Positions 18,039 to 32,167 of a stretch of DNA of 64,000 nucleotides are shown piece after piece (positions within the stretch are counted from its first letter, which is position 1; each line of letters opens with the position of its first letter). Source of the DNA: Zobellia barbeyronii. Lineage in GTDB: Bacteria; Bacteroidota; Bacteroidia; Flavobacteriales; Flavobacteriaceae. Position numbers and translations under genes: made by a program. The DNA is taken from assembly GCF_018603515.1 (NCBI RefSeq), contig NZ_JACATN010000001.1, positions 744,001 through 808,000 on the forward strand, in the 5' to 3' direction. The notes below the pieces were generated by a model. That model was not told the origin of the DNA and made no database searches. It saw nothing but the letters and a program-made list of their open reading frames with translations.

Positions 18039-18064
18039 TGCATTTCCTTTTTGATGCAAGACAC

Positions 18065-18072
18065 CAAAATTA
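18065..18072 (-). promoter_or_regulatory. -7 promoter element (TAATTTTG) of nasA
   Basis: A perfect TAnnTTTG on the minus strand. It predicts transcription starting near 18060, which favours the ATG at 18038 as the nasA start with a leader of about 22 nt. It lies about 40 bp from the centre of the ACGTA-N4-TACGT site at 18094-18107, the spacing expected for a class II FNR/CRP activator. Confidence 0.45.
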
Positions 18073-18092
18073 GATACAGCAAGTTATAAAAT

Positions 18093-18108
18093 TACGTATA
18101 TATACGTA
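18093..18108. promoter_or_regulatory. ACGTA-N4-TACGT operator, nasA
   Basis: A 16-bp perfect palindrome TACGTATATATACGTA. Its 5-4-5 half-site spacing is the same as an FNR box (TTGAT-N4-ATCAA) but with different bases. The proximal half runs into a second -7-like TAATTTTA. Proposed binding site of the FNR-like regulator encoded at 26300-27055. Confidence 0.55.
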
Positions 18109-18180
18109 GTGTTTTTTTCGTAATAGTTTGAGGTTTTAATCGTACATCAACAAAAAAAGAGCCTTTTCACTACTTTTCGA

Positions 18181-19524
18181 TCAATGACTCAAGATGCGTC
18201 CCCAGCATGGTGGAACTTCTACAGAAAGACCTGTTTTATTGGATGTTGAAGTATATCCGGTGTTCAAAAGATCCGTATAAACTCCTGAGGACAACCCTTT
18301 AAAATCAACATTTACTTTAACTGATTTGTTTGAAGCATTTACAATTATAACAATGGTCTTATACGTACTTTTTCTAGAGAAAGCGTATTGTTGATTGGTA
18401 ACCAACAATGTCTCATAAGAACCATTTACAAGGGTTTCGCAATTCTTATGAACTAGTATAAATTGTTTTATGGCTTCTAACAGCTTCGGATGTTTTGCCT
18501 GCGCCCCTAAGTCATTTAGCTTTACCCGTGGGCGCAACAAATAATCGCTATGTGCAGTTTTCTTTCCTTCAAAACCCCACTCACTTCCGTAGTAAATAGC
18601 AGGTATTCCTGGTAGCGTAAACAGTAGAAGGTATAATGGAAATAAATGCTCTGGCTTCTTCAAAGTACTAGCGGCACGGTTAACGTCATGATTATCCACA
18701 AAAGAATAGAGTTCCAGATTTTTATAAACTCCTTTAGGGCCAAAATCTAGTTCCACCATTTCGGAAATTTTACTAAAATCCTTTAGATTAAAGCTTTCAT
18801 AAATAGGAGTGTGGTAATCATAATTGGTAACGGAATCTAACATAACAGGATTTACCCACTTATTATAATCGCCATGAACTACTTCCCCCATTAACCAAAA
18901 CTCCGGATTTTCTTTTTTACAAAAGAGCCTAAGTTCTTTCATAAAATCAAAATCTAACACATCTGCAGTATCCAAACGCAGGCCATCAATTTTATAAATT
19001 TCAATCCACTTTTTAACCGCACCAAAAAGGTAATCACGGACCTCCTTATTTTTAAGATTAAGTTTTACTAGTTGATAGTAGCCTGCCCAAGTATCATAGG
19101 TAAAAGCATCCTTTAAGGGGCTTTTCTTCTTAAAATTTACATTTGAAAACCAATCAGTATATTTTGAATTCTTCCCAAATTCTTGAAGGTCTTTGAAAGC
19201 GAAGAAATCCCTGCCCACATGATTGAAAACCCCATCTAAAACCACTTTTATTCCGAACTCCTGGGCTTTCTCTATGAAAGCGATTAAGGAAGCATCATCA
19301 CCTAATCTTCTGTCTACTTCATAATAGTCTGCAGTATCGTAGCCATGGGTTGATGATTCAAACACTGGACCTATATAGAGTGCGTTGCACCCTAAGTCTA
19401 CCATATGCTCCAACCAACCATTAAGCTCTGAAAATCTATCAACCGGAATAGAAGCCAAATCATTGGTTTTCTCCGCACCCAAAAGGCCTAAAGGATAAAT
19501 ATGATAAAAGATAGCATGTTTCAT
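18181..19524 (-). CDS. Alpha-amylase family glycoside hydrolase (GH13)
   Basis: A 447-residue (beta/alpha)8 GH13 enzyme without a signal peptide, hence cytoplasmic. The conserved regions are present: 'GVFNHVG' (region I), nucleophile D185 in 'GLRLDTAD' (region II), acid/base E214 in 'GEVVHGD' (region III) and D280 in 'FVDNHDVNR' (region IV). A short C-terminal beta domain starts at about 370. It would hydrolyse alpha-1,4-glucans or maltodextrins. It lies between the NarL-like regulator (55 bp upstream) and nasA (about 120-140 bp downstream) on the same strand, so it may be transcribed with the nitrate genes. Why an intracellular glycan hydrolase sits here is not obvious. Confidence 0.87.
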   Translation of the reverse strand: MKHAIFYHIYPLGLLGAEKTNDLASIPVDRFSELNGWLEHMVDLGCNALYIGPVFESSTHGYDTADYYEVDRRLGDDASLIAFIEKAQEFGIKVVLDGVFNHVGRDFFAFKDLQEFGKNSKYTDWFSNVNFKKKSPLKDAFTYDTWAGYYQLVKLNLKNKEVRDYLFGAVKKWIEIYKIDGLRLDTADVLDFDFMKELRLFCKKENPEFWLMGEVVHGDYNKWVNPVMLDSVTNYDYHTPIYESFNLKDFSKISEMVELDFGPKGVYKNLELYSFVDNHDVNRAASTLKKPEHLFPLYLLLFTLPGIPAIYYGSEWGFEGKKTAHSDYLLRPRVKLNDLGAQAKHPKLLEAIKQFILVHKNCETLVNGSYETLLVTNQQYAFSRKSTYKTIVIIVNASNKSVKVNVDFKGLSSGVYTDLLNTGYTSTSNKTGLSVEVPPCWGRILSH

Positions 19525-19579
19525 GTACAGGAATAGTACCGAATTAGTAAATCACAAAGTAAAGATGAAATGCAGAAAA

Positions 19580-20251
19580 CTAAACCAAATTAAACTGCTG
19601 TGCTTTTTTTGAAAGGTCTATTAAATTCTTGACCTCCATTTTACGCATAAGGTTAAAACGGTGTGTTTCTACCGTACGCTTACTATTCTGAAGTTTTTCA
19701 GAGATTTGCTTATTCGTCAAACCAGACAGAACCAATTCCAGCACCTGAAGTTCTTTATTGGTCAAATCAAACTCATTACTTGTGGGAACAGCTTTTACAG
19801 GTGCTTCTGTTATTTTCGCAGATGAACTCAATAAATTATTAACCAAAACATTAGAAATATCACCACTGTAATACTTACCGCCGTCTCTAACGGTATGAAT
19901 AGCCTTAATAAATTCCGTTTTCCCTGTATCTTTTAAAAGGTAACCAAGAGCTCCGGCCTTCACAGACTTTAAAATATACTCTTCCGAATCGTGCATGGAA
20001 AGAATAATACATTTAACTGGTGAATTTTGGGCATTGAGTTTTTCAACAGCCTCTATACCGGTCATACGCGGCATTCTGATATCGATAATTAATAGATCAG
20101 GTGAGTTTTTGTTCACCATTTCAATCGCTTCAACACCGTCAGAAGCTTCTCCAATAACTTTTAAGTCAGATTCGCTTTCTAATAAAGCCCTTATGCCGTC
20201 ACGAACCAATGAATGGTCGTCCGCTAAAATGATACTTGTTGTCTGGTTCAA
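19580..20251 (-). CDS. NarL/LuxR-type response regulator
   Basis: A 223-residue regulator. The receiver domain (1-125) has the acidic pair D11/D12, phospho-acceptor D57 in 'LIIDIRMPRM', and a conserved Lys in 'LLKDTGK'. The C-terminal LuxR helix-turn-helix includes 'LTNKELQVLELVLSGLTNK'. The start is TTG at 20249-20251; no ATG fits the start of the receiver fold. The likely kinase partner is the NarX-like HisKA_3 kinase at 33361-35214, because both lie in the same nitrate locus and no other such kinase is present. An ACGTA-type operator covers its promoter, suggesting control by the FNR-like protein. Confidence 0.85.
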   Translation of the reverse strand: MNQTTSIILADDHSLVRDGIRALLESESDLKVIGEASDGVEAIEMVNKNSPDLLIIDIRMPRMTGIEAVEKLNAQNSPVKCIILSMHDSEEYILKSVKAGALGYLLKDTGKTEFIKAIHTVRDGGKYYSGDISNVLVNNLLSSSAKITEAPVKAVPTSNEFDLTNKELQVLELVLSGLTNKQISEKLQNSKRTVETHRFNLMRKMEVKNLIDLSKKAQQFNLV

Positions 20252-20256
20252 AATAT

Positions 20257-20279
20257 GCGTATTTATACGTACAAATATA
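20257..20279 (-). promoter_or_regulatory. Promoter plus ACGTA-type operator of the response regulator
   Basis: On the minus strand a perfect -7 element TATATTTG (20279-20272) is directly followed by TACGTA and then the rest of the palindrome: GCGTA-TTTA-TACGT at 20257-20270 on the plus strand, one mismatch from consensus. The operator would cover the transcription start, a repressor-like geometry. Confidence 0.5.
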
Positions 20280-20419
20280 GTGGATTTTTACAAAGGTAGA
20301 TTTACAATAACCTATGACTATCCTTAGGCTAAGAATAAAAACCTGATTATTATGTCTCCATTTATACTCAGGACAATCTATAGATGTGAAATACACACCA
20401 TTTAAGTAGAATTACATAT

Positions 20420-20456
20420 AAAAAAAGAACCGCTACAACAAAAAGGTTGTAACGGC
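20420..20456 (-). terminator. Rho-independent terminator of the nrtABCD-porin operon
   Basis: On the minus strand a 10-bp stem (20455-20446 with 20439-20430, one G-T pair) encloses a 6-nt loop and is followed by a run of T. It lies about 30 bp past the porin stop at 20485, closing that operon before the response regulator gene. Confidence 0.75.
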
Positions 20457-20484
20457 CCTATCGAAGCATCTTTATAAATGTGGA

Positions 20485-21789
20485 CTATTCTTTTGCCGTG
20501 TTCAAAAACTTAGGTTTCATGGTTAACTGTACCCATGCCCAGTTTTGAACGCTACCGGCAGCATCTTCCGTAATTCCCTTTAATTCGTACATACCATCAC
20601 TAGCAAACATTTGTGAGTAACCAATTGCCAGACCGTATCCTTTGAAGTTTTTAGCAAAAACCAAGTCAACTTCGGTACCCAGTGATTTTTCACCACTTCC
20701 CAATTCTTGTTCTCCACTAAAATTCAAAACTTTCACCAATAAACTAGAAGTTTCACCTAATGCAAATTTGGCACTAGCATGAATATCTGTAAGTCCTATT
20801 GAATTGGCATGATTCCCTACGTAGAAATAATCCATAAACCCATTGAATTTATGGTTCGTTCCATAGAGTGGAAAAAACGCTTCTGTCTTATCCGTAGTAC
20901 TTGCATCATTTCCGCTAATAATCTCAGCTCCAAGCCCTAAAGAAACACCTTTTGATACTTTGTAGCTCAGGTCTAATCCTAAAAGATATGCCCCGCTTAC
21001 ATCTACACTATTTTGGCGCTCCCCAGTTTGTAGATACCCATTAAATGCAGCTCCAAAATTTCCTTTTTTATAATCTAAGTGCGTACCCAAAGTAATTAAA
21101 TTGCTAACACCATCTGCTACAAGTGCATCTGCTTCGCCAGTAAAATTCTGGAAACCATTGTTCAAGATGAGCCCACTAACAGAAAAGGCTTCCCCCTTAT
21201 GTTTCGCATATAAGTATTGCATGCTTTTATAAGAGAAGAATCCCGTGGTATTATAAGCCGTACCTGCAGACTGAAATCCACCTGGGTTTGCGGTGGTAGC
21301 TGTAAAATCTTGATTAAAAGCTAGACCTAGGTCTATCATGAACTTTCCTTTACCATACTTTAATAAAGCTGCATCATGATTACGAGCTTGCATGGCCCAA
21401 TCAACTCCACCAAGAATTCTTTGGTCATCATACACGAGCATTTGGCGACCTATTTTTGTAGAGAATCCTTCACCTAATTTAATATCTGCCCAAGCTTGAA
21501 AAACAGAAAACGAATTATTACTGTCCTCAGGTTTTAATTGTCTATTTTCTCCCCAAACCATTACATCTTGAAGGCTCATATAGAATTTAAACGCTTCCGT
21601 TTGATAGCCCGCGTTCAAACGTAACCGAGTAGCAATTCCAAAGCCTGCATCAGCTGCATCCGGAATAATACTACCAAAACCATTTCGGTATTCGGTACGA
21701 GGTTTAAACTCACCATCGAGTTCAAATTGTGCAGAAGCAAACTGAATCGATAGGACTAGTAGGATTATTAATGTGTACTGTCTTTTCAT
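20485..21789 (-). CDS. Outer-membrane porin of the alginate-export family
   Basis: A 434-residue outer-membrane beta-barrel with a cleavable signal (MKRQYTLIILLVLSIQFASA) and many alternating amphipathic strands. 'RQMLVYDDQRILGG' is typical of the alginate_exp domain family. It is the last gene of an operon with the four nrt genes (35 bp after nrtD) and ahead of a clear terminator. Its position predicts a channel for nitrate or nitrite across the outer membrane rather than alginate export. The family name describes fold, not substrate. Confidence 0.8.
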   Translation of the reverse strand: MKRQYTLIILLVLSIQFASAQFELDGEFKPRTEYRNGFGSIIPDAADAGFGIATRLRLNAGYQTEAFKFYMSLQDVMVWGENRQLKPEDSNNSFSVFQAWADIKLGEGFSTKIGRQMLVYDDQRILGGVDWAMQARNHDAALLKYGKGKFMIDLGLAFNQDFTATTANPGGFQSAGTAYNTTGFFSYKSMQYLYAKHKGEAFSVSGLILNNGFQNFTGEADALVADGVSNLITLGTHLDYKKGNFGAAFNGYLQTGERQNSVDVSGAYLLGLDLSYKVSKGVSLGLGAEIISGNDASTTDKTEAFFPLYGTNHKFNGFMDYFYVGNHANSIGLTDIHASAKFALGETSSLLVKVLNFSGEQELGSGEKSLGTEVDLVFAKNFKGYGLAIGYSQMFASDGMYELKGITEDAAGSVQNWAWVQLTMKPKFLNTAKE

Positions 21790-21824
21790 AATCTAGGTAT
21801 ATTAAAAAAGTTTGTTGTTATGGT

Positions 21825-22649
21825 TTAATGTTCTAAAAAGTCAATTAAATGTTTTCTGTAGGTGTAGTAATCGTCATGTTCTAAAACTGATTTTCTTGTA
21901 CGAGGTCTTTCAAACTCTATATCTAGGATATCACCAATTTTTGCACTTGGTCCGCTAGTCATCATCACGACGCGATCTGCCAGGAAAATGGCCTCGTCCA
22001 CATCATGAGTAATCATGACCGCGGTAATTTTTTCTTTGTTCCATATTTCAATTAAGATGTCTTGCAATTCACCACGAGTTAAAGAATCTAGCATTCCAAA
22101 AGGTTCATCTAACAACAATACTTTAGGCTTGATTGCAAAAGCTCTTGCAATACCTACACGTTGCTGCATACCTTGTGACAATTCAATAGCTTTTTTATCA
22201 AAAGCGCCATCAAGACCTACCTTATGTAAGTAGTATTTGGCAATATCTTTGCGTTGTGCTTTGGTAGCATGAGGAAATACCTGGTTCACGCCCAAAAGCA
22301 CATTTTCTAAAGCGGTCATCCACGGCATTAAACTGGGAGATTGAAAAATAACGCCACGATCTGGTCCTGGCCCTTTGACAGGATTTCCTAAAACGGCAAT
22401 ATTTCCCCCAGAAATAGGGTTCAAGCCTGCAATCATAGAAAGCATCGTAGTTTTTCCACAACCAGAATGCCCGATGATAGTTACAAATTCTTCCTTCATA
22501 ATCTGAAGGTTTAGATTTTCTAATACCACATAATCCCCTTTAGGTGTGGGATACACTTTCTTTAGGTTAGATAAATCCAGCATCACTTTTGAAGGAAATA
22601 CAATTCCGTTCTGCGTTGTGCCTTTGTTAAGTATGGTTTCTGTGCTCAT
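21825..22649 (-). CDS. nrtD: Nitrate ABC transporter ATP-binding protein (NrtD-like)
   Basis: A 274-residue ABC ATPase: Walker A 'GHSGCGKTT' at about 59-67, signature '[14 protein letters not shown]', Walker B '[12 protein letters not shown]' and switch His in 'MITHDVDEA'. The sequence belongs to the nitrate/sulfonate/taurine importer group. It carries no C-terminal solute-binding domain of the kind fused to cyanobacterial NrtC. It is the second of two ATPases, 14 bp after nrtC, and would form a heterodimer with it beneath the NrtB permease. Confidence 0.85.
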
Positions 22650-22663
22650 TGGTTATTTTTTTA

Positions 22664-23503
22664 TTAGGCCACAAAACTTTTAGGTGCTATATCAGGAAGC
22701 TCATAGATTTCGTTAGAAACTGATTTACGTGCCTCGCCAATATCCATCAAATATTCTATGATGGCATTTCTGGTCTTTTTGAAATTAGGATTATCATTCA
22801 TAGCTGTTTTGTCGCGAGGTCGTTCAATATCAATTTTAAATTCCGGACCTAAAGTTGCATTGGGGCCTGGTTTTAAAGGGATAATTCTATCTGCCATATA
22901 AATACCCTCATCAACATCATTAGTAATCAATAAAGCGGTACGCTTATCTTGACTCCAGATATTCAATATTTCATCTTGTAAATTTCCTCTAGTCAAAGCA
23001 TCTAAAGCACCTAAAGGCTCATCCATTATTATCATTTCCGGATTCATCGCTAAGGCTCTTGCAACCGCAACACGTTGGCGCATTCCTCCAGATAATTCTT
23101 TAGGTCTTTTATTAATGGCCGGTGTTAAACTTACCATCCCCACATAATCCTTTACACGTTTCATTAGAAAAGCTTTCTTTTCTTTTGGAAAAGCCTCTTT
23201 TACCGCCATATATACATTCTGCCCTACAGTTAACCACGGTAACAAAGAATAGTTTTGAAAAATCACCCCTCGTTCATGACTGGTATCAACTACCGGTTCT
23301 CCTTTAAATAAAACCTCACCACTTGTGGGTTTTAAGAGTCCGTTAATTAAGTTTACTAAGGTTGTTTTTCCACTGCCTGTAAAACCTACAATGGCAACAA
23401 ACTCTCCTTCTTCAATGGAAAGGTTAATATTGGATAATACATCCGTTCGGTTATCTCCTTCTCCGTAGGATTTATAAACATTATTTAGTTCTAGGTATGC
23501 CAT
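22664..23503 (-). CDS. nrtC: Nitrate ABC transporter ATP-binding protein (NrtC-like)
   Basis: A 279-residue ABC ATPase with Walker A 'GFTGSGKTT', signature 'LSGGMRQRVAVARA' and Walker B 'MIIMDEPLGALD'. After Walker B the usual switch histidine region reads 'LLITNDVDEG', with Asn in place of the catalytic His. If confirmed, this would be an asymmetric pair in which only the NrtD partner has a complete switch. It starts 21 bp after nrtB and ends 14 bp before nrtD. About 35 extra residues follow the ATPase core ('KSVSNEIYELPDIAPKS'). Confidence 0.85.
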   Translation of the reverse strand: MAYLELNNVYKSYGEGDNRTDVLSNINLSIEEGEFVAIVGFTGSGKTTLVNLINGLLKPTSGEVLFKGEPVVDTSHERGVIFQNYSLLPWLTVGQNVYMAVKEAFPKEKKAFLMKRVKDYVGMVSLTPAINKRPKELSGGMRQRVAVARALAMNPEMIIMDEPLGALDALTRGNLQDEILNIWSQDKRTALLITNDVDEGIYMADRIIPLKPGPNATLGPEFKIDIERPRDKTAMNDNPNFKKTRNAIIEYLMDIGEARKSVSNEIYELPDIAPKSFVA

Positions 23504-23524
23504 CTTCTATTTTTTTAGGTGAGG

Positions 23525-24625
23525 TTATACTCCTTCGTTTTTGTTGAAAGACACCATATTCTGCACACTCAACATAATTCTGTCCAATAGAAAACCAATA
23601 ATACCAATGACAAACATGGCAACGATAATCTTCGCGTTGGAATCGTTAGCTCCATTTTGGAATTCCTCCCAAACGAATAAGCCTAAACCTTGACTTTGTG
23701 CTAATAGTTCAATAGCAATCAATACCATCCAAGCCACCGAAAGCGTAATTCGTAATCCTGTAAATATTAATGGTAATGATGATGGTAAAATCACTTTAAA
23801 TATTTTTTGAAAAGTTCCTAGTTTTAAAACCTTTGCTACATTGATATAATCTTTATCTACGGAGGAGACGCCCATTGCTGTGTTAACCAACGTAGCCCAC
23901 ATAGCGCACAAGCCTACACTTATAAAAGAGATTACAAAGGCATTATCAGAACTATCTCCGATATACAAGGTTTTTACAATCATAAAAACAAGCAAGTACC
24001 AAACTACAGGAGAAACCGGTTTAAAAATTTGAATGAACCAGTTAAAAGCGCTCCGCAACGAGGGACTCAAACCAATAACGACACCAATAGGTACAGCAAT
24101 TAGCAGCGCCAATAAGAAGCCCGCAAACACCGTTTTTATACTCGTAAGCACAATATCAACAAACGAGGCACGACCGGTATAAACAATAGCATTTTTACCT
24201 TTTGCTACTAATTTGGCATTTGTTGCAGCCATCTTTTGATTAAAAGCCGCTTTGTCTGCATTGATTACTTTATGGTCTGCAATTAAAGTTTGCAATGACG
24301 CCCATACCTGAGTAGGAGATGGCAAAGTGTTAGGCTGGCAACTACTTTCCCCGGAAGCGATACAATCACGCTCGGCATCAGCAGCAACCTGACCTTGTTC
24401 AGTCAATGCTTTTTCAATCTTGTAATTCGCTTCTATATTATATAGTGCCTTAGAACCCATGTGCCAGAGTCCCAAAAATAGTAGGATGGATAGTAAGGTA
24501 ATGCCCGATTTTTTGAGCCATGGTACCAAATCTCCCTTTTGAAACTTAGGAGTAAATTTGGCCACCAAAGGTTTTAGAAACGCTAGGCCTTGTCCTTCTT
24601 TATTTAATGTGATGTCTTGTTCCAT
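23525..24625 (-). CDS. nrtB: Nitrate ABC transporter permease (NrtB-like)
   Basis: A 366-residue inner-membrane permease. The first hydrophobic helix is at about 37-55. A long extracytoplasmic insert of about 90 residues (about 60-155, with two Cys in 'ERDCIASGESSCQ') precedes the remaining five or so helices. The cytoplasmic EAA-type loop is around 'DYINVAKVLKLGTFQ'. The family is usually about 270-300 residues, so the insert is an extension; it is common in Bacteroidota relatives as far as I recall. Partner of NrtC, NrtD and the NrtA lipoprotein. Confidence 0.85.
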   Translation of the reverse strand: MEQDITLNKEGQGLAFLKPLVAKFTPKFQKGDLVPWLKKSGITLLSILLFLGLWHMGSKALYNIEANYKIEKALTEQGQVAADAERDCIASGESSCQPNTLPSPTQVWASLQTLIADHKVINADKAAFNQKMAATNAKLVAKGKNAIVYTGRASFVDIVLTSIKTVFAGFLLALLIAVPIGVVIGLSPSLRSAFNWFIQIFKPVSPVVWYLLVFMIVKTLYIGDSSDNAFVISFISVGLCAMWATLVNTAMGVSSVDKDYINVAKVLKLGTFQKIFKVILPSSLPLIFTGLRITLSVAWMVLIAIELLAQSQGLGLFVWEEFQNGANDSNAKIIVAMFVIGIIGFLLDRIMLSVQNMVSFNKNEGV

Positions 24626-24664
24626 GATTGTATGCTTTTGCTTCGATAAATTGTACTGTAAACC

Positions 24665-26050
24665 TTAATCTTTGTTTCCGATAGAGAAACTATTGATGTA
24701 ACCAATAGGGTCTTTCGCATCATAAGAGGTACCGTCAATAAAATCTGTTGTTGCTGCTTTAAAGCCATCGGTTTCAGGAACATCTGTTGCAGGAATTTGT
24801 CCTTCGGCAACTAGTAAGTCTGCTGCTTTTTTCCAAATGTCAGGACGATAAATATCTTTAATCGTTTCGCTATACCATTCCGTAGTTTTTGTTTCTGGGA
24901 TTTGTCCCCATCTGCGCATTTGTGTCAAGAACCAAATACCATCTGAGTAGAAAGGATAGGTAGCATTATACTTATAGAACACATTGAAATCTGGCATATC
25001 TCTTTTATCGCCTTTTTCAAATTCGAAAGTACCCGTCATAGAATTGGCTAATACCTCTTCTGGTGCACCAACGTACTGAGACATGGAAAGAATTTTTACA
25101 GCTTCTGCTCTATTTGATGGTTCATCTAACCATTTTCCTGCGCGAATCATTGCTTTGGTAACTGCAACTGCAGTATTTGGATTATCATTAACGAATTTCT
25201 TTGTCATTACAAATACCTTTTCAGGGTTGTTTTTCCAGATATCATAGTTGGTTACTACAGGTACACCAATACCTTTAAAAACAGCTTGCTGATTCCAAGG
25301 CTCACCTACACAGTAGCCATAAATAGTACCTGACTCTAAAGTGGCTGGCATTTGTGGCGGAGGTGTAACAGATAGTAATACCTCAGCATCTATTTGACCT
25401 TGAACATTATCAGCAGTATACATACCTGGGTGAATACCAGCAGCTGCTAACCAATAACGTATTTCATAATTGTGCGTGGAAACAGGAAAAACCATTCCCA
25501 TTTTAAAAGGCTTACCGCTATTTTTGTATTCAGTAATTACAGGCTTTAAAGCATCTGCTTTAATAGGATGCACAGGTTTGCCATCTGCACCGACGGGTAC
25601 ATTAGGTTTCATTTTAGACCAAACATCGTTAGAAACCGTAATCCCATTTCCATTTAAATCCATTGAAAAGGGAGTCACCAATTCAGCTTGTCTTCCAAAT
25701 CCTGCACCAGCAGCAATAGGCTGTCCTGCCAACATATGCGAACCATCTAATTGGCCATCAATAACTCGGTCTAAAACGTTTTTCCAGTTGGATTGTGCTT
25801 CTACAGAAACAAAAAGCCCTTCATCTTCAAAGAATCCTTTTTCTTTAGCGATAGCTAAAGGTGCCATATCGGTTAATTTGATAAAACCAAACGTAAGTTG
25901 TGGCTTTTCAATATCTAATTGTTTTGTTTTTGAAGTAACTGCTTCTGTTGCTTCTTCCGTTGTTGCTTTTTTAGCATCTTTTCCACCGCAGGCTACTAGG
26001 AGCATCGCTGCTGATAGAAAGAGTGCTGTTTTTTTAAAGATTGATTTCAT
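24665..26050 (-). CDS. nrtA: Nitrate-binding lipoprotein, CmpA/NrtA family
   Basis: A 461-residue substrate-binding protein anchored by an N-terminal lipid ([12 protein letters not shown], Cys about residue 21). '[19 protein letters not shown]', '[18 protein letters not shown]' and '[14 protein letters not shown]' are typical of NrtA/CmpA nitrate or bicarbonate binders. Co-occurrence with nitrate reductase genes supports nitrate. First gene of the nrtABCD-porin operon, preceded by a perfect -7 element and ACGTA-type operators. Confidence 0.88.
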
Positions 26051-26073
26051 AATGTATGGTTTAATTATTTACT

Positions 26074-26109
26074 ACGTATTAGTACTTACTTTTGGCAAAT
26101 ATATACGTA
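26074..26109 (-). promoter_or_regulatory. nrtA promoter with ACGTA-type operators
   Basis: On the minus strand TACGTA (26109-26104) abuts a perfect -7 element TATATTTG (26103-26096), predicting a leader of about 42 nt. Downstream of the predicted start lies ACGTA-TTAG-TACTT at 26074-26087 (plus-strand reading), one mismatch from the palindrome. Operators on both sides of the -7 element suggest tight control. Confidence 0.5.
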
Positions 26110-26247
26110 ATTAGTTTTTTCACATATGGGATATGATAGGTTGTTTCCTCTTTTTACACCATACCAATACCTGCTATAAAACAGGTTATTCAGGTAACAC
26201 AAACAATTACTGCACATTAAAATACACGCACCTATATACTTATAGAT

Positions 26248-26261
26248 ACGTATTGTTACTT
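26248..26261. promoter_or_regulatory. ACGTA-N4-TACTT site in the fnr-nrtA spacer
   Basis: ACGTA-TTGT-TACTT, one mismatch from the 5-4-5 palindrome, lying between the regulator stop (26300) and the nrtA promoter, about 155 bp upstream of the predicted nrtA transcription start. It could be an auxiliary site for looping or simply a chance match. Confidence 0.3.
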
Positions 26262-26299
26262 ATTAAAAAAATGTGGTAAAGCGTAAGGCGGAATGAGAC

Positions 26300-27055
26300 T
26301 TAGCTATCTAGATAGAAGTTGTGTTCGGATATTTCCTGCTGCAAAAGTGAGGTATCGGTAATACCTATGTGCTTGCCTTTGGTTACGATAAGTTCTTCTT
26401 TTTTCAGAGCCGAAAAAACACGAATTACTTGCTCCTCAGTAGTGCCGGCATAATCGGCATACTCCCTTCGGCTTAACAATATGGATATAAAATTATGTTG
26501 CTGACCGAACTTTCTATGAACATACAACAAGGTATCAATAACTCTTTCCCGGACACTCATCTGTGAAAGTGTCTTTACTTTTGCCTCGCTTTTATTCAGT
26601 TCGTTTGCATAGAATAACATGAGGTCATAAGTAAACGTAGGTTCTGTTCGTAATACTTCTTGTAGATTTTCTTTGGAAAAATAACATAGCGTGCAATCTT
26701 CAAGGGCAACAGCACTTATAGTATAAGATTCTTCTGTTCCAAAACCCCTATGACCAATAATTTCGCCTTCTTTAGCAAAACGGACAATTTGTTCTTTACC
26801 ATGAAGTCCTGTGCGCAGTACTTTAACCTTTCCTTTTAATACAAAGAAAAGGCCAGTTACTGCGGCACCTTCCATAATAAATTGTTGTCCTTTTTTACAA
26901 CGTATCTCCTTTCGCTGTTTGACAAAAGTAGAACCTACTGAAGATTTCATGTTTCTCTTTATCAAGCAGTATTCGTTGGAACAAGCCATACAAACCGTAT
27001 TCACCAAATTCATATCATTGGTTAATCCACTTGTTTTATTTGAGATTGAAATCAT
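26300..27055 (-). CDS. FNR-like Crp/Fnr family transcription regulator
   Basis: A 251-residue regulator. An N-terminal cluster C22-x2-C25-x4-C30 and a further C124 ('LCYFS') inside the cyclic-nucleotide-type beta-roll occupy the same places as the four 4Fe-4S ligands of E. coli FNR (C20, C23, C29, C122). The helix-turn-helix is near residues 190-215 with 'SRREYADYAGTTEEQVIRV'; the FNR E-x2-S-R recognition motif reads E-x2-I-R. It probably senses oxygen, redox state or nitrosative stress through an iron-sulfur cluster. It follows narK by 14 bp in one operon. The ACGTA-N4-TACGT palindromes across this locus have FNR-type spacing and are the natural candidate targets. Confidence 0.82.
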   Translation of the reverse strand: MISISNKTSGLTNDMNLVNTVCMACSNEYCLIKRNMKSSVGSTFVKQRKEIRCKKGQQFIMEGAAVTGLFFVLKGKVKVLRTGLHGKEQIVRFAKEGEIIGHRGFGTEESYTISAVALEDCTLCYFSKENLQEVLRTEPTFTYDLMLFYANELNKSEAKVKTLSQMSVRERVIDTLLYVHRKFGQQHNFISILLSRREYADYAGTTEEQVIRVFSALKKEELIVTKGKHIGITDTSLLQQEISEHNFYLDS

Positions 27056-27069
27056 AGTTCACTACTATT

Positions 27070-28485
27070 TTATTTATCCGCGGCAGCGAATGCCAATTCA
27101 ACTTTTAGCTCTTCCTTTACCGCTTTTTCATCGGCAGTAGAGAACTTAATGGCTAGGGTAGTTAATGCCGTCACAGCAACGAAACCACCAATTACAAAAT
27201 AACCACTGGATACTGCACCAGAAGCTGCAGCAGCTTGTGCAGCTTTCATAGCTTCTTCTCCCAAATTAGAATTAGTAGCCAATGCCGCAGTCTCAGCAAC
27301 TGAAGATTTTGATTTTAAAAACATAGCAGCCATGAATGCTCCAACGTTTCCTCCTGCACCTACGATACCGGAAATAGAACCAATCGCTTTTTTATTTATA
27401 AAAGGAACCACAGAGAAAGTTGCTCCTTCTGCCATTTGTACGGAAAGGCTGAACAATATCAAGAAAATCATACCGAAAGCAATGCTTGTGGTGGTTGAAA
27501 AAATCGTTAACATAACACCTTCTACGGCCAGAATCATCGTCAGAAAAAGAACCCTACCACGAAGGCCTTTTAATTTTCCGAACCTATCTCCGAAAAAGCC
27601 ACCTAACGTACGAGCGAAAATATTCATTAAAGCAAATGAAAGCACTAAATTACCGGCCATTGACCGTGAAACACCAAAGGTGTTCTGAAGGTAATCATCC
27701 ATTGTTCCATAAACAGTTAGTTCTATACCAAAAGAAGCACCGTAAACAACAAAAAGAATCCATACCCTATAATCTTTCAGAACGCTCATAAAGCCTTCTT
27801 CATCTTTCTTTATAGTAGGCATTCTACCTTCTTCCTTCAACTGTGCAAAATTACCTTCAGGAGTATCTTGTGTAAAAAAGTAATACACCACACCCATTAA
27901 CATGGCAATAACACCAGCTATTACCATAGAATAACGCCATGCTATTTCATCAGCAACACCAAAACTAACAACGGCTGCTGCAATTAAAGGCATTCCTAAA
28001 CGGTTAGCGCCACCACCTAAATTTCCCCAACCTGCAGATGTGGCGTTAGCCGTACCAACAATATTAGGCGCGAACATTATAGAGGTGTGAAATTGAGTAA
28101 TAACAAAAGACGCCCCAATAAAACCGATAAATAAGCGGCAAACTAGAAATTGCGTTGGGGTTTGTACAAATCCTAAAAGGATAACAGGTATAGCACCAAT
28201 AATTAATAGGTACGTATAACATAACCTAGGACCATACTTATCACATAATTTACCTATTAGTAGTCTAGCAAATACGGTTCCTGTAACTGCTAATATAATG
28301 GAGTTCCATTTTTGCTCTGGAGTAAGACCTAAGTCTTTAACTACGTCTGGCATGAAAGGTACAATACCAAACCATGCAAAAAAGCAAATGAAGAATGCTA
28401 TTGAAGTAATCCAAAATGTTCGGATTGGCATACTTTTTAAATCGGTCAGTTTTAAAGTAGTCGATTTTTTAGATTGTGTTTCCAT
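27070..28485 (-). CDS. narK: Nitrate/nitrite MFS transporter NarK
   Basis: A 471-residue inner-membrane protein with 12 helices. Two glycine-rich nitrate signature stretches are visible: 'AGWGNLGGGANRLG' in the first half (about 152-165) and 'GIVGAGGNVGAF' in the second (about 376-387). A loop of about 30 residues ('SGAVSSGY' region) separates the last helices. NarK proteins carry out nitrate/proton symport or nitrate/nitrite exchange. Together with NrtABCD this gives the cell two nitrate uptake routes, likely low and high affinity. Encoded just ahead of the FNR-like regulator. Confidence 0.9.
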   Translation of the reverse strand: METQSKKSTTLKLTDLKSMPIRTFWITSIAFFICFFAWFGIVPFMPDVVKDLGLTPEQKWNSIILAVTGTVFARLLIGKLCDKYGPRLCYTYLLIIGAIPVILLGFVQTPTQFLVCRLFIGFIGASFVITQFHTSIMFAPNIVGTANATSAGWGNLGGGANRLGMPLIAAAVVSFGVADEIAWRYSMVIAGVIAMLMGVVYYFFTQDTPEGNFAQLKEEGRMPTIKKDEEGFMSVLKDYRVWILFVVYGASFGIELTVYGTMDDYLQNTFGVSRSMAGNLVLSFALMNIFARTLGGFFGDRFGKLKGLRGRVLFLTMILAVEGVMLTIFSTTTSIAFGMIFLILFSLSVQMAEGATFSVVPFINKKAIGSISGIVGAGGNVGAFMAAMFLKSKSSVAETAALATNSNLGEEAMKAAQAAAASGAVSSGYFVIGGFVAVTALTTLAIKFSTADEKAVKEELKVELAFAAADK

Positions 28486-28514
28486 AATACTGATGTTTTA
28501 AGTTTAAGGATAAT

Positions 28515-28547
28515 CAAAACTACGTATTTATATACGTAGTAGTACGT
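28515..28547 (-). promoter_or_regulatory. narK promoter fused to ACGTA-type operators
   Basis: A perfect -7 element TAGTTTTG reads on the minus strand at 28522-28515, fused to TACGTA. Two overlapping palindromes follow upstream: ACGTA-N6-TACGT (28522-28537) and ACGTA-GTAG-TACGT (28534-28547), the latter with the 5-4-5 spacing. Predicted leader about 25 nt. Confidence 0.5.
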
Positions 28548-28671
28548 ATATATTAAAAAACTGATGTATTTCTAAGTATTTTTACGATATTAAAAGAGAG
28601 AACAAACAAAAAATATAGAATTACAGAAAAAGTGAAGTCAATTTTGAATAAATGGAATTTTTACCAAAGTA

Positions 28672-28716
28672 AATCGCTCTATACAAGACTTATTACAAGC
28701 ATGATATAGAGCGATT
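28672..28716. repeat. Long inverted repeat between cobA and narK
   Basis: Perfect 12-bp arms AATCGCTCTATA (28672-28683) and TATAGAGCGATT (28705-28716) with a 21-nt loop, about 37 bp past the cobA stop. There is no clear T-run on either side, so it is a possible cobA 3' hairpin or mRNA stabiliser rather than a classical terminator. Confidence 0.5.
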
Positions 28717-28752
28717 ATATAGAAAAATACGTATCCGTAATATGTAGGCGCT

Positions 28753-29526
28753 TTAAAAGCTAGAATGAAGCACACGCTGTACCTCCTCTTCAAAAAAGGA
28801 AGGATGCTCAGCAACCACATCTCCTATTACAATGATGCCGGGTTTAGAAATATCTATATCAGAAGCACCAGAACCAATGCCTCCCAAATTGCCCACTATA
28901 CAAGATTCATTTTGCATTGTGCCATTCTGAATAACTGCCATTGGTGTTGAAGAGCCTCTATATTTACTTACCTCGGCGGATATTTCAGCTAGCTTCCTAA
29001 CTCCCATTAGTATAACCATCGTTGCAGAAGATTGAGATGCAAATTTTAAATCTTCAGAAAATGAGCCGTCTCTTTTTGTTGCCGTCATTACCCAGAAACT
29101 ACTACTAACTCCTCTACGTGTCATTGGTATACCTTGACTAGATGGAACGGCAATAGCACTAGAAACCCCAGGAACTACGGTTACCGGAATACCAAAAGAT
29201 TCTACATAAGCTATCTCTTCATGAGCTCTTCCAAAGACAAATGGATCACCACCTTTTAAACGAACCACATGGCCATGTTCAAATGCTCTTTCCACTATCA
29301 ATATATTAATATCATCCTGATTAAAGGAATGCACTCCACAACGTTTTCCTACGTATAATTTTGGAATACTTTCATCAATCTGCATTAATAGGTCTTCGTC
29401 TATCAAAGCATCATACAACACTACATCAGCAGCCTTTAAAGCCTTCAAACCCCTAACTGTGATAAGGTCTGCGCTTCCTGGACCTGCTCCTATTAATGTA
29501 ACCTTTGGCTCCTTAACTGTTTTCAT
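28753..29526 (-). CDS. cobA: Uroporphyrinogen-III C-methyltransferase (siroheme branch)
   Basis: A 257-residue SAM-dependent methyltransferase that makes precorrin-2, the first step from uroporphyrinogen III to siroheme. The start at 29526 is chosen because 'VTLIGAGPGSADLITVRG' begins there; a longer frame upstream has no family sequence. Further motifs are 'YVGKRCG', 'RLKGGDPFVFGR' and 'VPGVSSA'. It is a stand-alone CobA, with the dehydrogenase/ferrochelatase step encoded separately at 35201-35788. Divergent from nirB, its product's main consumer, with a shared 124-bp control region. Confidence 0.9.
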   Translation of the reverse strand: MKTVKEPKVTLIGAGPGSADLITVRGLKALKAADVVLYDALIDEDLLMQIDESIPKLYVGKRCGVHSFNQDDINILIVERAFEHGHVVRLKGGDPFVFGRAHEEIAYVESFGIPVTVVPGVSSAIAVPSSQGIPMTRRGVSSSFWVMTATKRDGSFSEDLKFASQSSATMVILMGVRKLAEISAEVSKYRGSSTPMAVIQNGTMQNESCIVGNLGGIGSGASDIDISKPGIIVIGDVVAEHPSFFEEEVQRVLHSSF

Positions 29527-29565
29527 ACCTAGTGATTTTATAGGATTGTTTTGGTAATTCCTCAA

Positions 29566-29573
29566 CAAAACTA
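29566..29573 (-). promoter_or_regulatory. -7 promoter element (TAGTTTTG) of cobA
   Basis: A perfect TAnnTTTG on the minus strand, fused to a TACGTA half-site exactly as in the narK promoter (TACGTAGTTTTG in both). Predicted leader about 36 nt. Confidence 0.5.
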
Positions 29574-29604
29574 CGTAATTATTTCCATAAAAACAGATGT
29601 CATG

Positions 29605-29626
29605 TACGTATTTATACGTAATATTG
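29605..29626 (+). promoter_or_regulatory. ACGTA-N4-TACGT operator with nirB promoter
   Basis: A 16-bp palindrome TACGTA-TTTA-TACGTA at 29605-29620 lies in the cobA-nirB divergent region. Its nirB-side half merges into TAATATTG (29619-29626), one mismatch from TAnnTTTG, which would give nirB a leader of about 21 nt. The site is roughly 50 bp from the cobA start point, so one operator could serve both genes. Confidence 0.55.
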
Positions 29627-29650: not shown

Positions 29651-32167
29651 ATGAAAACTATTATTGTTGTCGGAAACGGCATGGTCGGATACAAGTTCTG
29701 TGAAAAACTCGCAGCCCGAGAAGAATCTAAAAATTTTAAAATCATCGTTTTCGGTGAAGAACCCCGAGCAGCCTATGACCGTGTGCACCTTAGTGAGTTC
29801 TTTGGAAACAGGGATGCTAAGTCATTAGAACTTGCTCCCGCTAGTTGGTATACAGAAAACAACATAGAATTAGTGGTTAACGAACGTGTTACGGACATTC
29901 ACCGTAAAACAAAGACAATAACTACCGGAAGTGACAAAGAATACTCGTATGATTATTTGGTACTCGCAACAGGGTCCAGTCCTTTTGTTCCTCCTATAAA
30001 CGGGGTAGAAAAAGAAGGTGTATTCGTATACCGTACTATAGAAGATTTAGAAGCCATGCTAGATTATGCCGAAAAGATAAAGGCTAAAAAATCAGATGGT
30101 CGTGCCGCTATATTAGGTGGTGGTCTTCTAGGTTTAGAAGCGGGTAAAGCAGTAATGGACATGGGTCTAGAGCCACATGTAGTGGAGTTTGCACCTAAAC
30201 TAATGCCAAGGCAGCTAGATTCCAGAAGTAGTAATGTGCTTCAACTTACCTTAGAAAACATAGGAATAAATATTCATTTAGGAAAAGCTACCAATCGTAT
30301 TTTAGGAAATGGCGCCATAACCGGAATGGACTTTGGTGAAGACGATTCCCTAGAAGTAGATATGTTGGTTATTTCAGCAGGTATTCGTCCTCGTGATGAA
30401 CTTGGTAAAACCTGTAATTTGGCAATGGGAGTTCGCGGTGGTATCGTAGTTAATGATAGAATGCAAACTTCTGACCCTAATATATTTGCTATTGGAGAGG
30501 TAGCACTTTACAATCAGATGATATATGGGCTTGTGGCTCCAGGATATGAAATGGCAGAAGTGGCCGTAAATCAGATTATGGAAAGCTTAGAGGTTGTAAT
30601 GAGCGCAGAAATAGACATGTCTACCAAACTGAAACTGATAGGAGTAGATGTTGCTAGTTTTGGGGTTCCTTATATGCCTGCGGATAAGGGGCTTTCTATT
30701 ATTTACGAAAACAAAACTAAAGGACTATATAAAAGAATAAACGTAAGCCTTGACGGAAAAACCTTGTTAGGAGGGATTATGGTTGGTGATGCTGAAGATT
30801 ATAGCATTCTACACCAAATGTACCTCAATAACCTTCCTTTACCAGATAATGCCGAAGAACTCATAGTGGGCTCAAGAGGTGAAGGTGGCTCAGCATTTGG
30901 AAGTGCTATGGACCTACCTGATACCGCAGTAATCTGTTCTTGTGAAGCTGTAACTAAAGGAGCTGTTTGTTGTTCCGTAATAGACGATGGCAACGAAACA
31001 GTAAAAGAGGTTGCAAAGGCTACAAAAGCTACCACAGGTTGTGGAGGTTGTAAGCCAATGGTTGCTGATTTAGTGAAGGAAAGTCTGAAGACATTAGGGA
31101 AAACGGTCAAGGAAAGTATTTGCGAACATTTTGACCACTCTAGACAGGAGCTCTATGATATTGTAAAACTCAAGGGTGTTCAAGATTACGATCAATTGCT
31201 AGATGAAGTTGGAAAAGGGGATGGCTGCGAAGTCTGTAAGCCTCTTGCTGCTTCTATTTTCGCAAGTATTTATAATGAAACGGCTAACCGTCAAGAAACT
31301 ATTCAAGATAGTAATGACCGTTATTTGGCCAACATACAACGAAACGGAACATACTCCGTAGTACCTAGAGTAGCCGGTGGGGAAATCTCTCCAAAACAAT
31401 TAATGGCTATGGGTAGAATTGCTAAGAAATATGATTTATACACGAAGATAACAGGAGGACAGCGAATTGATATGTTCGGCGCCAAACTGCACGAACTTCC
31501 TCTTATTTGGGAAGAACTTATAGCGGAAGGTTTTGAAACGGGTCAAGCCTATGGAAAATCCCTTCGGACCGTGAAAAGTTGCGTTGGTTCTACATGGTGC
31601 CGTTACGGTATGGATGAAAGTGTAAGTTTTGCTATTGAGATAGAAAACAGATACAAAGGTATACGCTCTCCACACAAATTTAAAGGCGGTGTTTCCGGTT
31701 GTATTCGAGAATGTGCCGAAGCCCGTTCTAAAGATTTTGGTTTCATTGCCGTTGAAGGCGGATGGAACGTATACGTAGGCGGAAATGGCGGTGCAACCCC
31801 AAGACATGCTGAATTACTTGCTGAAAAAGTAGATAAGGAAACAGCCATAAAATATGTAGATCGTTTTATGATGTTCTACATAAAAACTGCACCACCACTT
31901 ACTAGAACATCTGCTTGGTTAGAAAAACTAGAAGGTGGCATTACATACCTTAAAAACGTAGTTATTAATGACTCATTGGGTATCGTAGAAGAATTGGACG
32001 CAGGCATGCAAAACTTCGTGAATACATACAAATGTGAATGGAAAGAGGCTGTAGAGACTCCAGAGATAAGAGAGCGTTATACACACTTTATCAACTCGGA
32101 AGAAACAGATGATAACATAGAATTTGTATCACTTCGAGAGCAAAAAATGCCTAAAGAGTGGGCTTAA
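29651..32167 (+). CDS. nirB: Assimilatory NAD(P)H-nitrite reductase large subunit
   Basis: An 838-residue cytoplasmic flavo-siroheme enzyme that reduces nitrite to ammonium with six electrons from NAD(P)H. The start at 29651 is where the FAD-binding 'IIVVGNGMVGYKF' begins. Order: FAD/NAD(P) reductase (1-400), BFD-like [2Fe-2S] segments with 'CSCEAVTKG', 'GCGGCKPMV' and 'GCEVCKPLA' (about 425-550), then two nitrite/sulfite reductase half domains. The siroheme/4Fe-4S ligands C644-x5-C650 and C684-x3-C688 are all present. NirD follows after 91 bp. Full length for the family. Confidence 0.92.
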   Translation: MKTIIVVGNGMVGYKFCEKLAAREESKNFKIIVFGEEPRAAYDRVHLSEFFGNRDAKSLELAPASWYTENNIELVVNERVTDIHRKTKTITTGSDKEYSYDYLVLATGSSPFVPPINGVEKEGVFVYRTIEDLEAMLDYAEKIKAKKSDGRAAILGGGLLGLEAGKAVMDMGLEPHVVEFAPKLMPRQLDSRSSNVLQLTLENIGINIHLGKATNRILGNGAITGMDFGEDDSLEVDMLVISAGIRPRDELGKTCNLAMGVRGGIVVNDRMQTSDPNIFAIGEVALYNQMIYGLVAPGYEMAEVAVNQIMESLEVVMSAEIDMSTKLKLIGVDVASFGVPYMPADKGLSIIYENKTKGLYKRINVSLDGKTLLGGIMVGDAEDYSILHQMYLNNLPLPDNAEELIVGSRGEGGSAFGSAMDLPDTAVICSCEAVTKGAVCCSVIDDGNETVKEVAKATKATTGCGGCKPMVADLVKESLKTLGKTVKESICEHFDHSRQELYDIVKLKGVQDYDQLLDEVGKGDGCEVCKPLAASIFASIYNETANRQETIQDSNDRYLANIQRNGTYSVVPRVAGGEISPKQLMAMGRIAKKYDLYTKITGGQRIDMFGAKLHELPLIWEELIAEGFETGQAYGKSLRTVKSCVGSTWCRYGMDESVSFAIEIENRYKGIRSPHKFKGGVSGCIRECAEARSKDFGFIAVEGGWNVYVGGNGGATPRHAELLAEKVDKETAIKYVDRFMMFYIKTAPPLTRTSAWLEKLEGGITYLKNVVINDSLGIVEELDAGMQNFVNTYKCEWKEAVETPEIRERYTHFINSEETDDNIEFVSLREQKMPKEWA

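Follow-up and report, generated by a model that had tools for sequence, protein, structure and literature searches.

A conserved palindrome groups the nitrate-use genes of flavobacteria and is probably the operator of a NarL-family response regulator

We analysed a 64-kb stretch of Zobellia barbeyronii DNA (assembly GCF_018603515.1, contig NZ_JACATN010000001.1, positions 744,001 to 808,000 of the forward strand; hereafter, the window) that carries a locus for nitrate use, and found that a short palindrome, TAMGTA-N4-TACKTA (M = A/C), really does mark the nitrate-use genes as one co-controlled set. Comparison of sequences across genomes makes a LuxR/NarL-family response regulator (RR) encoded in the locus the probable reader of this operator, whatever the sign of its control. 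A reading made from the sequence of the window alone had given that role to an FNR-like regulator (REG) of the same locus, an assignment that we abandon, as nine genomes lacking REG have the site, which follows instead the RR and its histidine kinase (HK). The system is of a known kind, with the operator and the promoter arrangement newly defined here and the assignment of the regulator corrected; direct binding by the RR, the sign of control and nitrate as the signal are what we infer.

The locus is ordered nasA, RR, a porin-like gene (labelled by eye), nrtDCBA, REG, narK and cobA, with nirB on the divergent side. The members of the regulon are nasA (14508..18059, minus strand), coding for an assimilatory nitrate reductase-like protein whose C-terminal half is NirB-like, nrtA (24665..26050, minus strand), coding for the nrtA-like substrate-binding protein of an ABC transporter and followed by nrtBCD down to 21825, the nitrate/nitrite MFS transporter gene narK (27070..28485, minus strand), cobA (28753..29526, minus strand), for the uroporphyrinogen-III methyltransferase of sirohaem synthesis, and nirB (29651..32167, plus strand), for the large subunit of nitrite reductase, which precedes nirD, a DUF gene, the kinase gene and a cysG-like gene. 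The proposed operator reader is the LuxR/GerE-type, narRR-like RR (19580..20251, minus strand; Response_reg and GerE domains), its proposed partner is the NarX-like HK (33361..35214, plus strand), and REG (26300..27055, minus strand) is a neighbour and likely target of the operator, probably not its reader.

Sites of the form ACGTA-N4-TACGT lie at 18094-18107, 28534-28547 and 29606-29619 without mismatch and at 20257-20270 and 26074-26087 with one. The sequence-only reading had reported these five with correct positions and mismatch counts, and had missed three further one-mismatch sites, two in the gap between REG and nrtA (26238-26251 and 26248-26261) and one inside cobA (29341-29354). With at most one mismatch, the window therefore has eight places, all at 18094-29619 and none elsewhere, which bears out the earlier statement that no such palindrome was seen in intergenic regions outside the locus; 60 dinucleotide shuffles of the window averaged 0.78 such places, with no more than 3 in any of them. 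At two mismatches, the 24 places are weakly above chance (shuffle mean, 17.1; 3 of 100 shuffles as high), and in the whole genome there is no enrichment at one mismatch or fewer (117 places versus 164 for the reversed control). Exact 5-4-5 copies number seven in the genome, three of them in the locus, and one of the other four (C11:855244) is within an open reading frame. For the longer unit TAMGTA-N4-TACKTA, the window holds five perfect copies, starting at 18093, 26073, 26247, 28533 and 29605, and the whole 4.98-Mb genome holds six, the sixth (C31:186513) being inside an open reading frame. As the reversed control pattern also gives five copies, it is the clustering rather than the total that is remarkable: with six sites placed at random, the chance of at least five falling in the 11.5 kb of this locus is about 4e-13.

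Conservation was assessed in the window and in 80 named loci with REG; the latter are the best 80 of 135 by REG similarity, so the counts are conditional on REG. Upstream regions shorter than 150 bp were left out here (shorter than 200 bp in the promoter counts given later), and dinucleotide shuffles served as palindrome controls in upstream regions because sequence reversal keeps palindromes. A de novo count of spaced palindromes ranked ACGTA-N4 best upstream of nirB (29/35), cobA (28/33), narK (23/41) and nasA (18/48) and AAGTA-N4 best upstream of nrtA (37/76) and REG (22/81); since both come out on top, the half-site is TAMGTA and the unit the inverted repeat given above. A perfect copy within 300 bp upstream was found for every nrtA (76/76), narK (41/41), nirB (35/35) and cobA (33/33), for 40/81 REG genes, for 14/38 RR genes (28/38 at 11/12 or better) and for 26/48 nasA-like genes, a set lowered by distant oxidoreductases (about 35% identical to nasA). 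The control genes had hardly any (porin-like, 0/68; nrtB, 0/71; HK, 2/42; nirD, 2/37), and shuffles reached 0 to 0.3%. The regulon also holds in trans: three genomes (G051, G079 and G024) have the nir block tens of kilobases from the REG/nrt block, a fourth (G043) has the locus on four contigs, and all four carry a perfect site at nirB, nrtA, REG and RR, with narK having one in 3/3 of the split-locus genomes where it was covered. The idea of one operator tying together nasA, the response regulator, nrtA, narK and cobA/nirB is thus upheld by the scan of nas, nir, nrt and narK orthologues in relatives that had been proposed for it, separated blocks keeping their own sites. Among 149 relatives, the 30 with NirB average 6.8 perfect copies per genome (control, 2.9), versus 1.3 (control, 1.8) in the 119 without it.

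The same relatives show which regulator tracks the site. REG orthologues (E <1e-75) and NrtA occur in the identical 22/149 and NirB and HK in the identical 30/149, and the kinase accompanies REG in 22/22 and so does not discriminate; the test of REG is provided by the eight genomes with NirB and without REG. In all seven of these that were scored, nirB is preceded by a perfect site, the eighth (G123) being left unscored because its contig begins inside nirB. A phylum-wide draw of 395 genomes added 26 new ones to this comparison (28 with NirB at E <=1e-150). A site was counted if it reached 11/12 or better in the 400 bp preceding nirB, and 55 of the 56 NirB genomes were scored; in G172, where the strand was ambiguous, the better flank was taken, and the site was separately placed upstream of nirB. 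The site was present in 34/34 REG-bearing genomes, in 9/10 REG-lacking genomes with an orthologous RR, in 0/2 with a divergent RR and in 0/9 whose locus carries no RR and no HK (the kinase being judged from locus stretches in the phylum set), or, overall, in 43/44 genomes with an orthologous RR versus 0/11 with none or a divergent one. The co-occurrence of motif and regulator suggested in the sequence-only reading stands in one direction, as all genomes keeping REG keep the motif, and fails in the other, as nine without REG keep it too.

Three of the REG-lacking, site-keeping genomes (G008, G114 and G319) form within-genus contrasts to REG-bearing members, in three genera. In G008, from the same genus as the window, and in G018, sites remain at nasA, narK and cobA/nirB, but narK and the porin-like gene have neither REG nor nrtABCD between them; in all, 4/9 REG-lacking genomes were seen with sites at further nitrate genes beyond nirB. 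Thirteen genomes of g117 and g118 have nir loci without REG, but a genome-wide search found it elsewhere in 12/13, and these 12 were counted as REG-bearing. REG and nrtABCD are missing as one block, like a cassette, leaving gaps at 11448-11551 of L153 and 13900-14011 of L152. Orthology of the RR was verified by genome-wide search in 33/44 RR-bearing genomes (E <=3.7e-65 each), and the other 11 were seen at the locus (G024, G043, G051 and G079; G001, G002, G003 and G005, 91-93% identical; G004, G006 and G007). The two divergent regulators have best E values of 1.8e-52 and 5.5e-50, and the nine other genomes give 1.5e-47 or weaker, or no match.

The genomes without a scored site are informative in themselves. 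The single exception among those with an orthologous RR, G323, belongs to another family (57% GC here) and has no perfect site and no REG relative at 1e-15. Its RR has the same recognition helix as the site-bearing set, SRRTVETHRFNMM, and six of the seven TACGTA words in its 19-kb stretch fall within the 400 bp upstream of nirB, at other spacings, one of them being fused to a -7 box. The divergent regulators of G334 and G392 have changed helices, SVRTVDNHRANMM and SPNTVANQRASII, with no TACGTA in the 400 bp. The nine genomes without RR and HK have no TACGTA in that stretch either, and one of them (G422) has two TAMGTA/TACKTA words.

We propose that the kinase and the RR would form a nitrate-sensing pair whose operator is the palindrome. 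The kinase of the window has PilJ, PAS, HisKA_3 and HATPase_c domains, with no match to HAMP or GAF at E 0.001, and carries the P-box-like sequence INVAGFQRAYSQKL; the underlying pattern, based on the nitrate-binding P-box with an Arg in the sensor helix, is found in 55/72 kinase loci. In the RR, the phosphoacceptor Asp is present in 59/59 aligned sequences, and the recognition helix RTxExHR extends across the site-bearing set. The best alignments of its DNA-binding domain in the PDB are to EsrB, SsrB and FixJ (RTVEVHRANVM). Systematic evolution of ligands by exponential enrichment gave FixJ the consensuses GTAGTTTCCC and GTAMGTAG, and a fixK site reads TAAGTAATTTCCCTTA (PMC4999443). The core TAMGTA of GTAMGTAG is the half-site of our operator, and the fixK site also shares TAMGTA or TAAGTA. 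SsrB is described as recognizing an 18-bp 7-4-7 palindrome in which spacer and half-site changes are tolerated (PMC2837388). The RR may bind paired TAMGTA half-sites 4 bp apart (6-4-6), and sometimes runs of three at about 10 bp. Residue 196 of the RR varies with base 3 of the half-site, which is C in 153/192 cases in the clade with Thr and in 68/166 in the clade with Val; G323 fits, with Thr, six TACGTA and no TAAGTA.

The position of the operator bears on the sign of control. Flavobacterial promoters have a -7 box, TAnnTTTG, at -12 to -5 (PMC9723704). We called an operator fused when its last TA serves as the TA of such a box with at most one mismatch in TTTG, counting only upstream regions with a perfect site. 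Fusion was found at nirB in 35/35 (14 exact), at REG in 39/40 (29 exact), at nasA-like genes in 25/26 (9 exact; 48 upstream regions examined) and at narK in 20/41 (17 exact). At nrtA, TACKTA abuts the -7 box in 69/75 promoters with a box (L073, without TAnnTTTG, was left out), and the palindrome is downstream of the box, as it is at the RR and globin promoters. The operator sits at about -26 to -11 where fused, or at about +1 to +18 where it lies at the start site (nrtA, globin and RR). A TTTG 21-25 nt before the box, the canonical -33 element, was found in 1/119, counted in the fused promoters only. With operators covering either the -7 box or the region of the transcription start, the anatomy suggests repression by occlusion as the simplest reading: the RR would occlude the promoter and keep the nitrate genes off, and the signal of the kinase would release them. 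An alternative sigma-factor promoter was considered and rejected, as the position of the palindromes with respect to the -7 box varies and some lie downstream of it.

The same anatomy can be followed in the window. The perfect operator upstream of nasA (TACGTA-N4-TACGTA; 18093..18108, minus strand) could share its last TA with a -7-like box, TAATTTTA (18087-18094), and an exact box, TAATTTTG, lies nearby at 18065-18072. The operator of the RR gene (11/12; 20256..20271, minus strand) is directly downstream of a -7 box, TATATTTG (20272-20279). At nrtA, the operator (26073..26088, minus strand) is just downstream of a -7 box of the same sequence (26096-26103), near the expected transcription start, and a TACGTA half-site (26104..26109, minus strand) adjoins the box. 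The gap between REG and nrtA contains three half-sites with a 10-bp period, TAAGTA-N4-TACGTA-N4-TAAGTA (26237..26262, minus strand), which include the perfect palindrome at 26247-26262. The perfect narK operator (28533..28548, minus strand) is accompanied by a third half-site (28521-28526) fused to a -7 box, TAGTTTTG (28515-28522). The perfect cobA/nirB operator (29605..29620, plus strand) ends in the TA of the nirB -7-like box, TAATATTG (29619-29626), and on the cobA side a TACGTA half-site (29572..29577, minus strand) is fused to another copy of the narK-type box (29566-29573).

A different element makes a better candidate site for REG. The protein combines a cNMP-binding fold with a Crp-type helix-turn-helix (PF00027, PF13545), and the E-x2-I-R of its recognition helix, correctly read in the initial annotation, is invariant in 81/81 aligned orthologues. 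So are C25, C30, C53 and C124; C22 is present in 75/81, and in the other six the chosen ATG start lies beyond it. In alignments to solved FNR structures, C124 falls on a Cys, which we take to be Cys122 in FNR numbering, and the spacing of the cysteines differs from that of FNR. FNR proper holds its [4Fe-4S] cluster with four cysteines, three N-terminal ones and the C122 equivalent. Against the curated FNR family PRK11161, REG scores 69.4 bits, below the cut-off of 228. When nrtA promoters are aligned on the -7 box, ATG-N8-CAT appears in 50/75, its centre fixed 29 nt before the box. A scan of both strands of the 80 loci and the window for ATG-N8-CAT with TAnnTTTG after it gave 68 cases with a 22-nt gap (nrtA, 50; porin-like, 12; other, 6), against 0 to 6 for each of the 13 alternative gaps in the range 16-29. 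With the box at -12, the centre of the element is at -41.5, the classical class II CRP/FNR position, and the palindrome is a plausible target for REG. The window has CTA-N8-CAT (26126..26139, minus strand), 22 nt before the nrtA -7 box and centred at -41.5; with CTA as its left half, the candidate REG site of the window is degenerate. CTG-N8-CAT precedes the globin gene in G079 and G051 (read by eye). In G103 (ATG-N8-CAT) and G009 (CTG-N8-CAT) the element stands at nrtA with REG present and no TAMGTA half-site over about 300 bp, and no ATG-N8-CAT element was found in the stretch inspected of G323, which has an nrtA-like gene (74%) without REG. The nrtA promoters also carry an A-tract 52 to 49 nt before the -7 box, upstream of ATG-N8-CAT, with four As at 99-100% of the 75, and a similar tract is seen in two globin promoters. 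REG itself is present as two tandem copies in G103 (L250:11639-13212) and as two separated copies in G009 (L251:5656-11453).

Other readings of the palindrome fare differently. That an AT-rich palindrome merely recurs in intergenic DNA would suit the two-mismatch motif, barely above its shuffles, and the similar words in NirB-less genomes, such as repeated TACGTAACGTTACGTA, but with five of the six perfect genome sites within 11.5 kb, and with 76/76, 41/41, 35/35 and 33/33 conserved against 0/71 and 0/68 in control genes, chance can be practically dismissed. REG as the reader of ACGTA-N4-TACGT is improbable, even if it is encoded in the locus with a helix departing from that of FNR, shares its 22 of 149 relatives with NrtA, accompanies the site in all 34 REG-bearing genomes, has a perfect site upstream of its own gene in 40/81 loci and belongs to a family, CRP/FNR, that the 5-4-5 spacing suits. 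The nine REG-lacking genomes keep the nirB site, four of them with sites at further nitrate genes; positions of -26 to -11 or about +1 to +18 are not those of a CRP/FNR activator; a different conserved palindrome sits exactly at -41.5 of nrtA, and in G103 and G009 it does so with REG present and no TAMGTA half-site; and the contact residues E208, I211 and R212 of REG are invariant across the clades using TACGTA and those using TAAGTA. A CRP/FNR relative of REG as general reader in the REG-lacking genomes was also rejected, none being found at 1e-15 in G114 and G323, which likewise speaks against such a relative as a general third regulator. A third, unlinked regulator, with the two-component system merely co-occurring with nitrate genes, is unlikely, if less so than REG. 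The kinase and RR are mostly near nirB, so their co-occurrence with the site is partly linkage, and ten NirB-less relatives have at least five perfect sites; such a regulator would, however, have to be absent or to read another site in the nine genomes without kinase and RR and in the two with changed helices, and the half-site is the FixJ core while the RR helix is FixJ/SsrB-like.

Within the preferred reading, the RR could also act as an activator, either because the nearest -7 boxes are not all true ones or because activation occurs from within the promoter. This variant is possible, though we consider it the less probable sign: NarL, FixJ and SsrB are chiefly activators, the canonical -33 TTTG is found in just 1/119 fused promoters and the alternative nasA box would place the palindrome near -40, an activator position, but at nrtA, globin and RR the palindrome follows the -7 box, which makes repression plausible, and TACKTA abuts the box or shares its TA at nrtA (69/75), nirB (35/35), REG (39/40) and nasA-like genes (25/26). 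NarL is described as repressing as well (PMC8199190). Several other points weigh against the RR as a repressing reader of the operator. The Fisher value for site against RR, 1e-10, overstates the evidence, as the genomes are related and the counts not independent. Ten of the 119 NirB-less relatives (G012, G016, G020, G035, G036, G040, G052, G066, G075 and G083) have 5-11 perfect copies; many copies in NirB-less relatives are repeated words, and in seven stretches of G040 and G075 the window-matching nitrate genes were limited to one cobA-like and one nrtC-like match. G334 (26% GC) has four unpaired TAAGTA/TACTTA half-sites in the 400 bp, so its lack of a site rests on the palindrome only and is a weaker negative. 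The P-box pattern was not found in 17/72 kinase loci, five of these kinases being short. The covariation at residue 196 is largely one clade split plus G323 and is suggestive only. The exact fused box is limited to 14/35 at nirB and 9/25 at nasA-like genes, and at narK the palindrome is 10 nt before the box at 17 sites, with the box of the window carrying a third half-site. A NarL/FixJ-type regulator mainly repressing nitrate genes would be unusual, and the 7-2-7 sites of NarL are arranged differently from this operator.

Taking the RR as the operator reader, REG would form a second layer, activating nrtA, and elsewhere the globin gene and a porin-like operon, via ATG-N8-CAT at -41.5. Joined together, the two layers suggest a model that we put forward tentatively and hold to be rather less than an even bet. 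In Bacteroidota, a dedicated NarL-family repressor with a FixJ-type core would have its operator merged with the -7 element, TACKTA sharing the TA of TAnnTTTG; the REG-nrtABCD cassette would have brought an iron-sulfur FNR-like activator with its new site and adopted the host operator downstream of the start, which would make the promoters of nrtABCD and globin act as a two-input AND-NOT gate. In G079 and G051, REG adjoins an operon for a single-domain globin, a Tll0287-type haem protein, a ferredoxin reductase and a multihaem cytochrome, and in G079 a nap-like operon (molybdopterin oxidoreductase, NapB, Fe-S protein and NrfD) lies on its other side; operator sites in these two genomes precede REG, globin and nrtA. 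This neighbourhood hints at nitric oxide or nitrate respiration under REG. The regions are at L142:1337-12553 (Flavivirga-type, with the nap-like operon) and L139:8381-13414 (Algibacter-type).

A narHK/narRR pair has already been described in Bacteroidetes, with a NarX/NarQ-type sensor that has PAS and no HAMP or GAF and lies beside nitrate genes (PMC8199190), and the pair in the window matches it in kinase architecture and nitrate-gene context. What that review covers in this respect is genes and architecture, not DNA targets (PMC8199190); the operator, the regulon and the promoter anatomy are added here. The system resembles the NarX-NarL and NarQ-NarP pairs of Enterobacteria in combining a nitrate sensor with a NarL-family regulator, and NarL (1a04) is the best solved-structure match of the full-length RR; it differs in its conserved operator, TAMGTA-N4-TACKTA, with GTA/TAC facing inwards and placed on the core promoter. 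NarL sites are TACYYMT heptamers in a 7-2-7 arrangement, which the operator does not have. The likeness to rhizobial FixJ is one of sequence only (helix RTVEVHR versus RTVETHR in the window, and GTAMGTAG including TAMGTA), and FixJ differs in responding to oxygen via FixL and acting at fixK upstream sites, with no 6-4-6 palindrome in the account drawn on here (PMC4999443). SsrB and EsrB have the closest solved DNA-binding domains (7vim, 2jpc), and SsrB has its 7-4-7 palindrome, but half-site and genes are others, and SsrB is described as giving transcriptional activation (PMC2837388). REG, for its part, is like FNR in its Cx2Cx4C N-terminal motif, aligned Cys, CRP-type helix-turn-helix and candidate site at -41.5, and unlike it in the helix E-x2-I-R, the candidate site ATG-N8-CAT and the Cx4C. 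FNR has Cx5C in its motif and TTGAT-N4-ATCAA as its site. Among the matches listed in our search of the open-access literature, the operator, the regulon and the REG site were not described.

How marine flavobacteria use nitrate is important for nitrogen in the ocean, and the literature searched yielded no map of its control in these bacteria. An operator that can be searched as a pattern yields the regulon and predicts the reader. The signalling of GAF-less Bacteroidetes kinases and kinase roles across organisms are named as open questions in the review (PMC8199190). The case of REG also illustrates that proximity and helix residues can point to the wrong regulator, an error that genomes lacking the regulator correct.

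Some further observations concern the genes and words described above. The five short kinases (458-519 aa; L251, L160, L248, L250 and L249) match the window kinase only from residue ~173-216 and so appear to be without the PilJ sensor region; the operator persists in four of their genomes, the nirB upstream region of the fifth (L249) being outside the stretch. Clusters of repeated TACGTAACGTTACGTA, TACGTAGTTCTACGTA or similar words occur in G036, G031, G012, G052 and G016. In one genus, nirB falls into two groups relative to that of the window, 71-72% identical in G002, G003 and G006 and 94-96% in the others, and the kinases of those three genomes are 81-95% identical to the window's, which suggests a replacement of nirB. 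Lastly, a glycoside-hydrolase-like gene (amylase-type by eye) lies between nasA and the response regulator in the window (18181-19524); L056 and L058 are the only named loci with a match to it, and L153, from the same genus, has one as well.

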